The translations under genes and the position numbers were made by a program. From a virus: a stretch of 38,828 bases of DNA. The notes under the pieces were generated by a model, which saw nothing but the letters and a program-made list of their open reading frames with translations, made no database searches and was not told where the DNA came from. Positions 5,924 to 8,879 of this stretch are shown piece by piece. Numbering within the stretch: position 1 is the first letter of the stretch; every line of letters begins with the position of its first letter. The stretch is taken from IMG/VR virus record IMGVR_UViG_3300022690_000315, positions 1 through 38,828 of that record; one strand, written 5' to 3'.

Positions 5924-6247
5924 ATGAGTTTATCAGTAACAACAGATATGGCAGTTCAATACATTTACGACAAAATAGATAAGTTTTCTATTTTAGCTAT
6001 AAAATCAGGAATATGCGAAGTTGATAGCGAAGAAATGGTTATGGAAATAATGAAGACAATTATTAAAAAAAAGAGGGAATTTGACGGTCACGCACCATTA
6101 AATGTGTATATTGTCAGAGGAATGAAAAAACAAACCGCTAAATTTTATAGGGATAAATACGTTAGCGAATTTTCAGACCGGGAAAGATACGAGCAAATGA
6201 ATTTAGCTCGAAAGATAATAAACGATAATCGGGAGAGGTACTCCTAA
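5924..6247 (+). CDS. Sigma-70 region 2-like small protein, candidate late regulator
   Basis: 107 aa. Residues 28-76 resemble the core of sigma-70 region 2: an acidic helix (EVDSEEMVMEIMKTIIKK) followed by FDGHAPLNVYIVRGMKKQTA and KFYRDK, comparable to the FdGrapf-Wl-rI-rN-a-dy-R pattern. Region 4 is absent. It is the last gene of the early operon, directly before the structured region and upstream of terS, where phages often keep the late activator or antiterminator. Both the fold and the role are inferred; it could simply be an unknown helical protein. Confidence 0.45.
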   Translation: MSLSVTTDMAVQYIYDKIDKFSILAIKSGICEVDSEEMVMEIMKTIIKKKREFDGHAPLNVYIVRGMKKQTAKFYRDKYVSEFSDRERYEQMNLARKIINDNRERYS

Positions 6248-6834
6248 GCCAACAGAGGATAAAAAACTCTCTTTGTTGGGTTAATACATAGGGTTTTACC
6301 AGTGTGTTAGTATGAAGATCACACTCAATAAGATAAAATACTCTATGTATTCGATTATAATAAACACGCGGATGTGAAACCAAAGCTATATTAACATAAT
6401 TGACTACATTATTCGACATTTTAGACCACCCACATAGTACATAAGCCTCCACAATATAGCCTCCGCGATAAAATATCAACCTCAACGTAAAACGTATTGA
6501 AATTTGAATTAACTTGGTCGTACAAAAGAACAAAATCCAAATTGTTTCTAACGAAAAAATCCTTGTATTTGTCCTTTTGTACTGAGCCTGAAAAACTTTA
6601 AATGAAACCAAAGCAATTTAGACATAAGGATGCGTTATATGACAACCTAAAGCGTTGCAATAGAACCCCCTATAACGAACATTATGTTAAATAGCCACAC
6701 TCACTACTAGGATACTCCTACTCATTTAATTTACAATTTTTAGGAGAAACTATGCGATGTGATTAAATGGATATTAAAGCAGATTGACAAACATAGATAT
6801 GGTAAATCTTTTCAAGATAGACTTCAAAAAAGAA
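6248..6834 (+). other. Gene-free region rich in inverted repeats; candidate large structured RNA
   Basis: No + strand gene was found. By-eye helices are 6249-6254/6274-6279; the stack 6286-6291/6343-6348, 6293-6298/6334-6339 and 6301-6306/6320-6325; 6367-6372/6462-6467 enclosing 6385-6392/6453-6460; 6520-6528/6574-6582 enclosing two smaller hairpins; 6613-6621/6647-6651 plus 6655-6658; and 6715-6720/6741-6746, which competes with 6708-6712/6716-6720. The 12-mer TGAAACCAAAGC occurs twice (6375-6386, 6603-6614), each time running into a helix that begins with its final GC. A 149-codon minus frame (6162-6611) is probably a by-product. Energies were not computed. Confidence 0.55.
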
Positions 6835-7038
6835 CTAAAGATTCTTCCTCCGTTCTGATCTCTCGTCTAAAATCTCGTTCATTAATTTTGTAATTTTCTT
6901 AATTAATTCTTCCTCTTTTAATGCAGGAAGCCCTAATCTAAGGCTTATTAGTAATTGGTGGTTAACTTGTGTCATTAAGGCTATTTCTTCTAATAATACA
7001 AGAACTTCTACTTTGTATTTTTCTTCACTATCTATCAT
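6835..7038 (-). CDS. Short helical protein, only minus-strand gene
   Basis: 67 aa, read right to left from ATG at 7038. Charged and amphipathic composition (SEEKYKVEVLVLLEEIALM, EEELIKKITKLMNEILDERS) looks like real coding sequence, likely a coiled helical hairpin. A Bacteroidota-type -7 element lies just upstream on the minus strand (7071-7064). No helix-turn-helix seen and no family recognised. Being divergent from the LRR gene and antisense to everything else, it could be a regulator of the late switch; this is inference. Confidence 0.45.
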   Translation of the reverse strand: MIDSEEKYKVEVLVLLEEIALMTQVNHQLLISLRLGLPALKEEELIKKITKLMNEILDERSERRKNL

Positions 7039-7063
7039 TGGTTGTTATTTAATAATTAACTAT

Positions 7064-7094
7064 CAAACCTACCCTATTTCACCCATTATCGCAA
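7064..7094 (-). promoter_or_regulatory. Candidate minus-strand promoter
   Basis: On the minus strand, TAGGTTTG (7071-7064) fits TAnnTTTG, with TTG (7094-7092) about 20 bp upstream as a possible -33 element. It would start a transcript about 20 nt before the ATG at 7038. A short dyad, CAACT-A-AGTTG (7092-7102), overlaps the -33 side and could be an operator. Confidence 0.4.
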
Positions 7095-7164
7095 CTAAGT
7101 TGTTCTAATAGAATAACGTTAGGAAATTTCTACTTTTTTTATATCAGATTCTTGTTATCTTTAT

Positions 7165-7188
7165 TCTGATTCACAAAGATGAATCAGA
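7165..7188 (+). other. Perfect 9-bp inverted repeat, 6-nt loop
   Basis: TCTGATTCA (7165-7173), loop CAAAGA, TGAATCAGA (7180-7188). It lies between the minus-strand gene and the 7203 pseudoknot. No T-run follows on the + strand; it may be an operator or an RNA hairpin. Confidence 0.6.
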
Positions 7189-7202
7189 TACATATTGCTT
7201 GT

Positions 7203-7320
7203 TTAGTTCAGAATTGGTACTTCAAAACGTGACAAGCCCTCCCCCAATGGATACACAGACGGTTATTTGTCACGGGTAGTACCAAACCTTGAACTAAGTA
7301 ATCATTAAGTCTGTGTATCC
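7203..7320 (+). ncRNA. Three-helix stem with 12-bp loop-to-tail pairing (pseudoknot leader or bistable switch)
   Basis: Three stacked 8-bp perfect helices are visible: 7203-7210/7290-7297, 7214-7221/7278-7285 and 7228-7235/7267-7274. The apical loop carries GGATACACAGAC (7249-7260), a perfect 12-bp match to GTCTGTGTATCC (7309-7320) just 3' of the stem. All pairings are Watson-Crick. Only 11 nt (7298-7308) link stem and tail, so the 12-bp helix may form instead of part of the stem, as a switch. It ends 43 nt before the LRR gene ATG at 7364, so it is most simply its 5' leader. Confidence 0.7.
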
Positions 7321-7363
7321 TAATTTATACCCTTCTTTGGCTTAGGAAGACATATCGTGCAAT

Positions 7364-8320
7364 ATGAAAAATATTCTACTATTATCATTTTTGATAACAA
7401 CAAATCTATTTAGTCAAAATGTAAATATACCAGACGCTAATTTTAAATTTTATCTGGTTGGAAACAATTTAATAAATATCAACTTAGATGGTGAAATACA
7501 GGTTAGTGAGGCTACGGCATTTCCAGGAGCCATTAATGTTTCTTCTGGTGTTTCCGATTTAACAGGACTAGCAGCATTTACTTCACTTACAAGATTACAA
7601 TGTCTTTCTACTTCTCTTATTAATTTAGACCTCTCTGGTAATTTAGCACTGACAGAGTTATTTATTAATAGTAACTCTTTGGTGAGCTTGAATATTTCTA
7701 ATAATACAGCACTTGAAAAATTAGACTTATTGTTTACTCAATTAGTCAATCTTGACGTATCTAGCAACATTGCGCTTACCTATTTAAGGTTTAAAAGCAA
7801 CTATTCCCTAACCAATATAAATGTTTCCCAAAATACAGGGCTTATAGATTTAAATTGCACAAACAATTCGTTGACAAGTCTGGATGTATCCAACAATACA
7901 GCCCTTACAAATTTAGATTGCTCTGCTAATTCCTTAACCAGCCTTGATTTATCGAATAATAAGGCACTTAAAAGCGTGAAATGCATTAATAATTCGTTAA
8001 CTAGCTTAGACCTTAGAAATGGAAATAATATTTTTATGTCTGCTAATTTCGATGCAACTGGCAACTTTCTGTTTTGCATATCAGTAGACAATAAAGCATG
8101 GGCAGATGCTACTTGGGCATCTAAAAAAGACCCTGGTACAGTTTTCAGCGAAGATTGTTATGTAGGAATCAAAGAGAACCAACTAGATAACATAACTGAA
8201 GTAACTATTTACGATTTATACGGAAGAAAGGTTAATCGTGTAAATAGATTTCAGGTATATTTGGTAAGAACTAAATCAAATGGAAGGTATACAAGCAAGA
8301 AAATAGTCCAAATCAATTAA
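7364..8320 (+). CDS. Secreted leucine-rich-repeat protein with T9SS-type C-terminal sorting tail
   Basis: 318 aa. A signal peptide at 1-18 (MKNILLLSFLITTNLFSQ) is followed by the IPDANFKFYLV opening common to secreted Bacteroidota LRR proteins. About eight degenerate 20-21-residue LRRs follow (LTSLDVSNNTALTNLDCSAN type, about residues 65-220), then CISVDNKAWADATW...FSEDC, and a C-terminal segment (VTIYDLYGRKV...YLVRTKSNGRYTSKKIVQIN) matching the type A sorting domain of type IX secretion. The host would export it to its surface. It is not a structural phage gene and looks captured from a host: a moron candidate for adhesion, immunity or superinfection effects. It is preceded by its own structured leader. 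Confidence 0.85.
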   Translation: MKNILLLSFLITTNLFSQNVNIPDANFKFYLVGNNLININLDGEIQVSEATAFPGAINVSSGVSDLTGLAAFTSLTRLQCLSTSLINLDLSGNLALTELFINSNSLVSLNISNNTALEKLDLLFTQLVNLDVSSNIALTYLRFKSNYSLTNINVSQNTGLIDLNCTNNSLTSLDVSNNTALTNLDCSANSLTSLDLSNNKALKSVKCINNSLTSLDLRNGNNIFMSANFDATGNFLFCISVDNKAWADATWASKKDPGTVFSEDCYVGIKENQLDNITEVTIYDLYGRKVNRVNRFQVYLVRTKSNGRYTSKKIVQIN

Positions 8321-8468
8321 CTCCAGCACCTATTTTCATTTAATCGACTTGATAACTACTTCCACTCATACTTCGTGGCCGTTATCTTCATCGAGCGTTT
8401 TTCAGGCTTCTAAAACAATCGCTATCGCTCTTGAAAAAAAGGATAATTCTAAATTTCAATACGTTTAT
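8321..8468 (+). other. Gap before terS with possible small pseudoknot
   Basis: No gene seen. GAGCG (8393-8397) can pair with CGCTC (8426-8430), and TTTTTCA (8398-8404) with TGAAAAA (8432-8438), in interleaved order. The second pairing is A/T-only and may be fortuitous. Either a leader structure or part of a terminator for the LRR gene. Confidence 0.35.
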
Positions 8469-8476
8469 TACCTTTG
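8469..8476 (+). promoter_or_regulatory. Bacteroidota -7 promoter element before terS
   Basis: TACCTTTG fits TAnnTTTG. Its last G is only 4 nt before the terS ATG at 8481, so the transcript would begin at or next to the start codon (leaderless or nearly so). No clear TTTG -33 element lies at the usual distance. Confidence 0.5.
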
Positions 8477-8480
8477 ATAC

Positions 8481-8879
8481 ATGGAAGATGAAAGATCAAT
8501 CAAAGACATAGAGAAAGACCTTACTGACAAACAAAAGATTTTTTGTAGAGAATACGTAACAGACTGGAACGCCACAAGGGCTGCCATAGCAGCAGGATAT
8601 TCAAAGAATACAGCTTCAGAAATAGGGTGGGAAAACCTCAGAAAACCTCAGATTGAAAAATATATCGACCATATTCAAAAGGATTTAATCAAATTGTGCG
8701 GTGTAAGTACGTTGAGTAATGTCGAATATCTAAAGAAAATACTCGAAAGAAAAGAGAAAACAACCGATCAAATCAAAGCTATTGAGGTCATCAATAAAAT
8801 GCTAGGTCTTAATGCACCCGAAAAGCAAGATATTACCACAGATGGTAAGTCATTCGATTTAATAAATTGGGTGAAATGA
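8481..8879 (+). CDS. terS: Terminase small subunit
   Basis: 132 aa. The N-terminal motif LTDKQKIFCREYVTDWNATR followed by AAIAAGYSKNTASEIGWENL is the DNA-binding helix-turn-helix of Terminase_2-type small subunits. The central region (KDLIKLCGVSTLSNVEYLKK) and the C-terminus are as in phages of the PBSX/SPP1 type. It recognises phage DNA and hands it to TerL. The stop overlaps the terL ATG (ATGA). Confidence 0.9.
   Translation: MEDERSIKDIEKDLTDKQKIFCREYVTDWNATRAAIAAGYSKNTASEIGWENLRKPQIEKYIDHIQKDLIKLCGVSTLSNVEYLKKILERKEKTTDQIKAIEVINKMLGLNAPEKQDITTDGKSFDLINWVK

Follow-up and report, generated by a model that had tools for sequence, protein, structure and literature searches.

The DNA analysed here, called the window throughout, is the whole 38,828-nt stretch of the IMG/VR virus record IMGVR_UViG_3300022690_000315. 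Its terminase is closest to those of IMG/VR contigs, with up to 72% identity, and among named phages it is closest to those of Riemerella and Nonlabens phages, with 43-46% identity. The window is thus that of a flavobacterial-type siphophage whose host probably belongs to the Flavobacteriaceae or is closely allied to them. Some 2.2 kb of inserted DNA (6248-8480) separate a gene that ends at 6247 from the small terminase gene, which is at 8481, and hold both a gene for an LRR protein and the structured element described below. Relatives of the LRR protein occur in 123 of 299 Flavobacteriaceae genomes; a single-protein search of IMG/VR found none and a profile search found two distant ones. The last 56 residues of the protein score 18.0 bits against Por_Secre_tail and 25.1 bits against the T9SS type C domain, both below cut-off. 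In the terminase relatives, which are up to 72% identical, nothing corresponds to the non-coding part of the insert or to the LRR gene. Cargo would be expected to behave in this way, and the LRR gene is best seen as a host-derived phage cargo gene (moron) whose product appears to resemble the secreted proteins of Flavobacteriaceae.

The remainder of the insert has several further features. About 350 nt at 6248-6611 lack a convincing gene. Hairpins lie there at 6250-6280, 6283-6297/6337-6351 and 6520-6534/6568-6582, the minus-strand fold z-score is -4.4 at 6500-6619, and no convincing relative was found for a minus-strand ORF of 149 aa. A direct repeat at 6375-6399 and 6603-6627, TGAAACCAAAGC(T/A)AT...ACATAA, is 84% identical over 25 nt. 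On the minus strand at 6835-7038, divergent from the LRR gene, is an ORF of 67 aa with protein-like composition; searches of phages and of 199 Flavobacteriaceae genomes gave no convincing relative.

The element at 7203-7320 consists of three nested perfect 8-bp helices (H1, H2 and H3) and an interleaved perfect 12-bp match between the loop and the tail, making 36 Watson-Crick pairs in total (Table 1). It had been pointed out in a sequence-only reading of the window, the coordinates and 36 Watson-Crick pairs of which all proved correct when the sequence was checked again, as did the 11-nt length of the linker and the interleaving of the loop-tail pairing with the stem. The tiers are set apart by unequal internal loops of 3/4 nt (H1 to H2) and 6/3 nt (H2 to H3), the closing loop is 31 nt long, and the 12-mer of the loop-tail helix is found at two places only in the window, its own two strands. 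With a hairpin loop that pairs outside its hairpin, through a perfect match interleaved with H1-H3, the element has the architecture of an H-type RNA pseudoknot. The loop begins with a C-rich run at 7236-7245, GCCCTCCCCC, which contains the anti-Shine-Dalgarno core CCUCC and is unusual at 36% GC.

Table 1. Features of the element, its flanks and the downstream LRR gene (window coordinates)
Feature	Position	Strand	Sequence or remark
9-bp perfect dyad, upstream of structure	7165..7188	.	TCTGATTCA-CAAAGA-TGAATCAGA
H1 5' strand	7203..7210	+	TTAGTTCA, perfect complement of 7290-7297
H2 5' strand	7214..7221	+	TTGGTACT, perfect complement of 7278-7285
H3 5' strand	7228..7235	+	CGTGACAA, perfect complement of 7267-7274
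First loop segment, C-rich, 13 nt	7236..7248	+	GCCCTCCCCCAAT, direct reading
Pseudoknot helix, loop strand	7249..7260	+	GGATACACAGAC, perfect complement of 7309-7320
H3 3' strand	7267..7274	+	TTGTCACG, pairs with 7228-7235
H2 3' strand	7278..7285	+	pairs with 7214-7221
H1 3' strand	7290..7297	+	pairs with 7203-7210
Linker, 11 nt	7298..7308	+	GTAATCATTAA, direct reading
Pseudoknot helix, tail strand	7309..7320	+	GTCTGTGTATCC, perfect complement of 7249-7260
Spacer to LRR start codon	7321..7363	+	hairpin over the Shine-Dalgarno-like AGGA at 7344-7347 possible but unremarkable
LRR gene, 318 aa	7364..8320	+	signal-peptide-like start, partial T9SS sorting-domain-like end

As a sequence feature the element is real and far too regular for chance. 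When the whole 38.8-kb window was dinucleotide-shuffled 400 times, each shuffled copy contained on average 0.0025 nested triples of 8-bp helices and 0.005 pseudoknot helices of at least 10 bp around a nested pair. A 12-bp match was present in 25 of 5000 shuffles (0.5%) of the local 301-nt region. Folding of 7200-7325 gives a z-score of -3.45 under an energy model that cannot include the pseudoknot, and none of 200 shuffles was equally stable. A structural descriptor run over 4.1 Mb of fetched sequence returned nothing related to the element; iteron-like repeats apart, only one place equalled the element in its total of pairs, and that place is GC-rich with shorter stems.

Searches for relatives were negative throughout. 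Rfam covariance models gave 0 matches in the window at the gathering score, and at a relaxed threshold only chance-level matches to unrelated families. BLAST of the element in phage records and plasmids, a DNA search of 397 Flavobacteriaceae genomes and a comparison with the terminase-related phages each failed to detect a homologue, and the structure was absent from the fetched upstream DNA of the distant LRR relatives in host genomes. A covariance model built from the element, low in power for being founded on one sequence and limited accordingly in its negatives, recovered nothing beyond the window itself; it was run over the window together with 64 loci, over 67 more loci, over the 397 Flavobacteriaceae genomes and over 395 genomes at class level. 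Four scans of IMG/VR by helix or loop patterns produced chance hits, apart from a family of repeated CGTGACAA...TTGTCACG boxes that is unrelated to the element. By these comparisons the element is so far an orphan and a singleton and, with no homologue in phages, plasmids, picked viral contigs or about 790 Bacteroidota genomes, covariation offers no evidence for or against the pairing.

The ends of the helices bear on which strand might be transcribed. On the + strand, G-U pairs at 7202-7298, 7211-7289 and 7236-7266 lengthen H1 and H3, and their minus-strand counterparts would be A-C mismatches; among the helix-adjacent positions the + strand has G-U in these three cases, and the A-C pattern that would signal the other strand was never seen. 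Because such terminal wobble extensions exist on the + strand only, the sequence leans weakly towards + strand RNA.

An element acting as DNA is one alternative, though we consider it unlikely. It could be a protein-bound cluster of inverted repeats, or a site for recombination or packaging close to the terminase genes, and its likeness to an RNA structure would then be superficial. It would be in keeping with the exclusively Watson-Crick pairing, with the identity of H3 (CGTGACAA/TTGTCACG) to the box repeated in many IMG/VR contigs, and with the separate perfect dyad at 7165-7188, a possible operator. Against it, a set of dimer sites would not require the nested tiers that the unequal internal loops create, the stem interleaves with the 12-bp match and does not enclose it, and nothing similar is found at the corresponding place in related phages. 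An integron attC site was rejected, as the outer arms TTAGTTCA...TGAACTAA have the opposite polarity to the RYYYAAC...GTTRRRY core. The CGTGACAA...TTGTCACG pairs are abundant in IMG/VR phage contigs, often clustered at fixed spacings (41, 48 and 50 nt) with extra copies, and these clusters look like an iteron or operator array.

The ATG of the LRR gene lies 43 nt downstream of the element on the same strand, with no other + strand gene between them. That the element is the leader of this gene, as the sequence-only reading had proposed, is plausible but unproven: the shared strand, the position 43 nt upstream and the lack of an intervening terminator hold, whereas no promoter for the LRR gene can be claimed, as the -7 candidates upstream do not exceed chance. 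The Flavobacterium -7 element is TAHHTTTG (PMC6847099). No full copy was found upstream of the structure, and partial matches in 7040-7203 numbered 2 against about 2.2 expected by chance. At 7191-7198, CATATTGC is one letter off an SM5-type promoter box and would start an RNA exactly at 7203; boxes one letter off turn up at about 1% of positions. Between 7320 and the ATG there is no clear -7 element either (4 of 6 matches only), and on neither side does a promoter exceed chance. Full TAHHTTTG elements occur at 16 places in the window. Those at 8469, 10420, 17577 and 27779 lie just upstream of phage genes, the first of them (8469-8476) preceding the small terminase gene, which points to short leaders in several transcription units. 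Against a leader, flavobacterial 5' UTRs are usually short, with a median of 24 nt and a mean of 65 nt; in its favour, structured 5' UTRs with no Rfam match are known in Flavobacteriaceae (PMC9723704).

The same region was considered for a small non-coding phage RNA that acts in trans, with the C-rich loop as a seed or protein site, or with intermolecular loop-tail pairing into head-to-tail multimers. The fold is self-contained, no significant link joins its 12-nt tail to the start region, and the sequence equally permits an intermolecular loop-tail match. Such an RNA is nevertheless improbable, as there is no terminator-like site after 7320 (nor any between the structure and the LRR gene), no independent promoter above chance, and no relative that we could find. 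It is also doubtful that the element represents a class of phage RNA not described before, whose long three-tier hairpin and 12-bp loop-tail helix would build either a pseudoknot of very large size or head-to-tail multimers and would control a secreted cargo protein or act alone.

Whether the four helices could coexist was assessed by rigid-rod sampling with A-form dimensions. The sequence-only reading had held the 11-nt linker to be too short and had therefore leaned towards a two-state switch. The sampling does not support the linker argument, with many arrangements that place the 12-bp helix across the stem and every loop at about 4 Å per step; because the rod model, crude as it is, accommodates all four helices at this linker extension, a static pseudoknot is possible. 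A cis-regulatory switch, in which the H1-H3 hairpin and the loop-tail duplex would be mutually exclusive and a signal would shift the balance between them to control LRR expression, seems to us rather unlikely. In its favour, two mutually exclusive nested folds over 7203-7320 have predicted energies of -31.0 and -30.8 kcal/mol, a near-equality that permits a switch without demonstrating one. Besides the steric compatibility of the helices, the switch is opposed by the lack of a ligand family in Rfam and of a riboswitch-like expression platform, no terminator having been found and masking of the start region being insignificant: start-site masking by the hairpin over AGGA was discarded as 32% of shuffles fold equally well. 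Shine-Dalgarno sequences are absent from Bacteroidota mRNAs (PMC6847099).

A leader-peptide attenuator is very improbable. It would use a small ORF at 7247-7279 (MDTQTVICHG) that starts in the loop and overlaps both the loop strand and the 3' arms, so that its translation would open the stem as well as the loop-tail helix. Chance commonly produces ORFs of 10 codons; this one has a run of C before its start, unlike the Flavobacterium context of A at -3 (PMC6847099), and it comes with neither a regulatory codon run nor a terminator.

We tentatively prefer, with limited conviction, the most economical reading, namely that this orphan element is an H-type pseudoknot which acts in cis from the 5' UTR of the phage's cargo gene for the secreted LRR protein. 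The lack of homologues counts against it, as does the absence of the structure upstream of the distant LRR relatives in hosts. Under this proposal the three-tier H1-H2-H3 hairpin would form first, during transcription, and the 12-nt tail would then pair with the hairpin loop, locking a large H-type pseudoknot. In folds of successive prefixes the stem is complete by 7297 and the tail comes last, which is the natural cotranscriptional folding order for a pseudoknot. The compact fold may act in cis by shielding the message with a stable block at its 5' end, or by offering a protein or ligand a docking site that sets LRR expression. The analysis shows the helices, how improbable they are, where they lie and that the gene is cargo; that the + strand is transcribed, that the pseudoknot forms in cells and that it has any effect on regulation we infer.

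H-type pseudoknots occur in phage and viral mRNA leaders, such as that of T4 gene 32. Like leaders of the T4 gene 32 type, the element has a stem that interleaves with a loop-tail helix, in a 5' UTR on the coding strand, but it is much larger, with a three-tier stem of 24 bp and a second helix of 12 bp, and has no similar sequence, Rfam match or known protein partner. Pseudoknot riboswitches (SAM-II, preQ1, fluoride and others in Rfam) are likewise compact pseudoknots upstream of a coding start; the element differs in that no covariance-model match, conserved core or expression platform was found for it. The unassigned structured 5' UTRs of Flavobacteriaceae (PMC9723704) resemble it as long structured leaders of flavobacterial-type mRNAs with no Rfam match. 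Those UTRs, however, belong to host genes, with conservation across genera in some cases, whereas the element lies on a phage cargo gene.

At present the element is a clean, testable orphan structure and not an established regulator. Flavobacteriaceae translate without the use of Shine-Dalgarno sequences, and few of their regulatory RNAs are understood; if confirmed, the element would be an RNA structure that controls a phage-carried secreted protein in this family.
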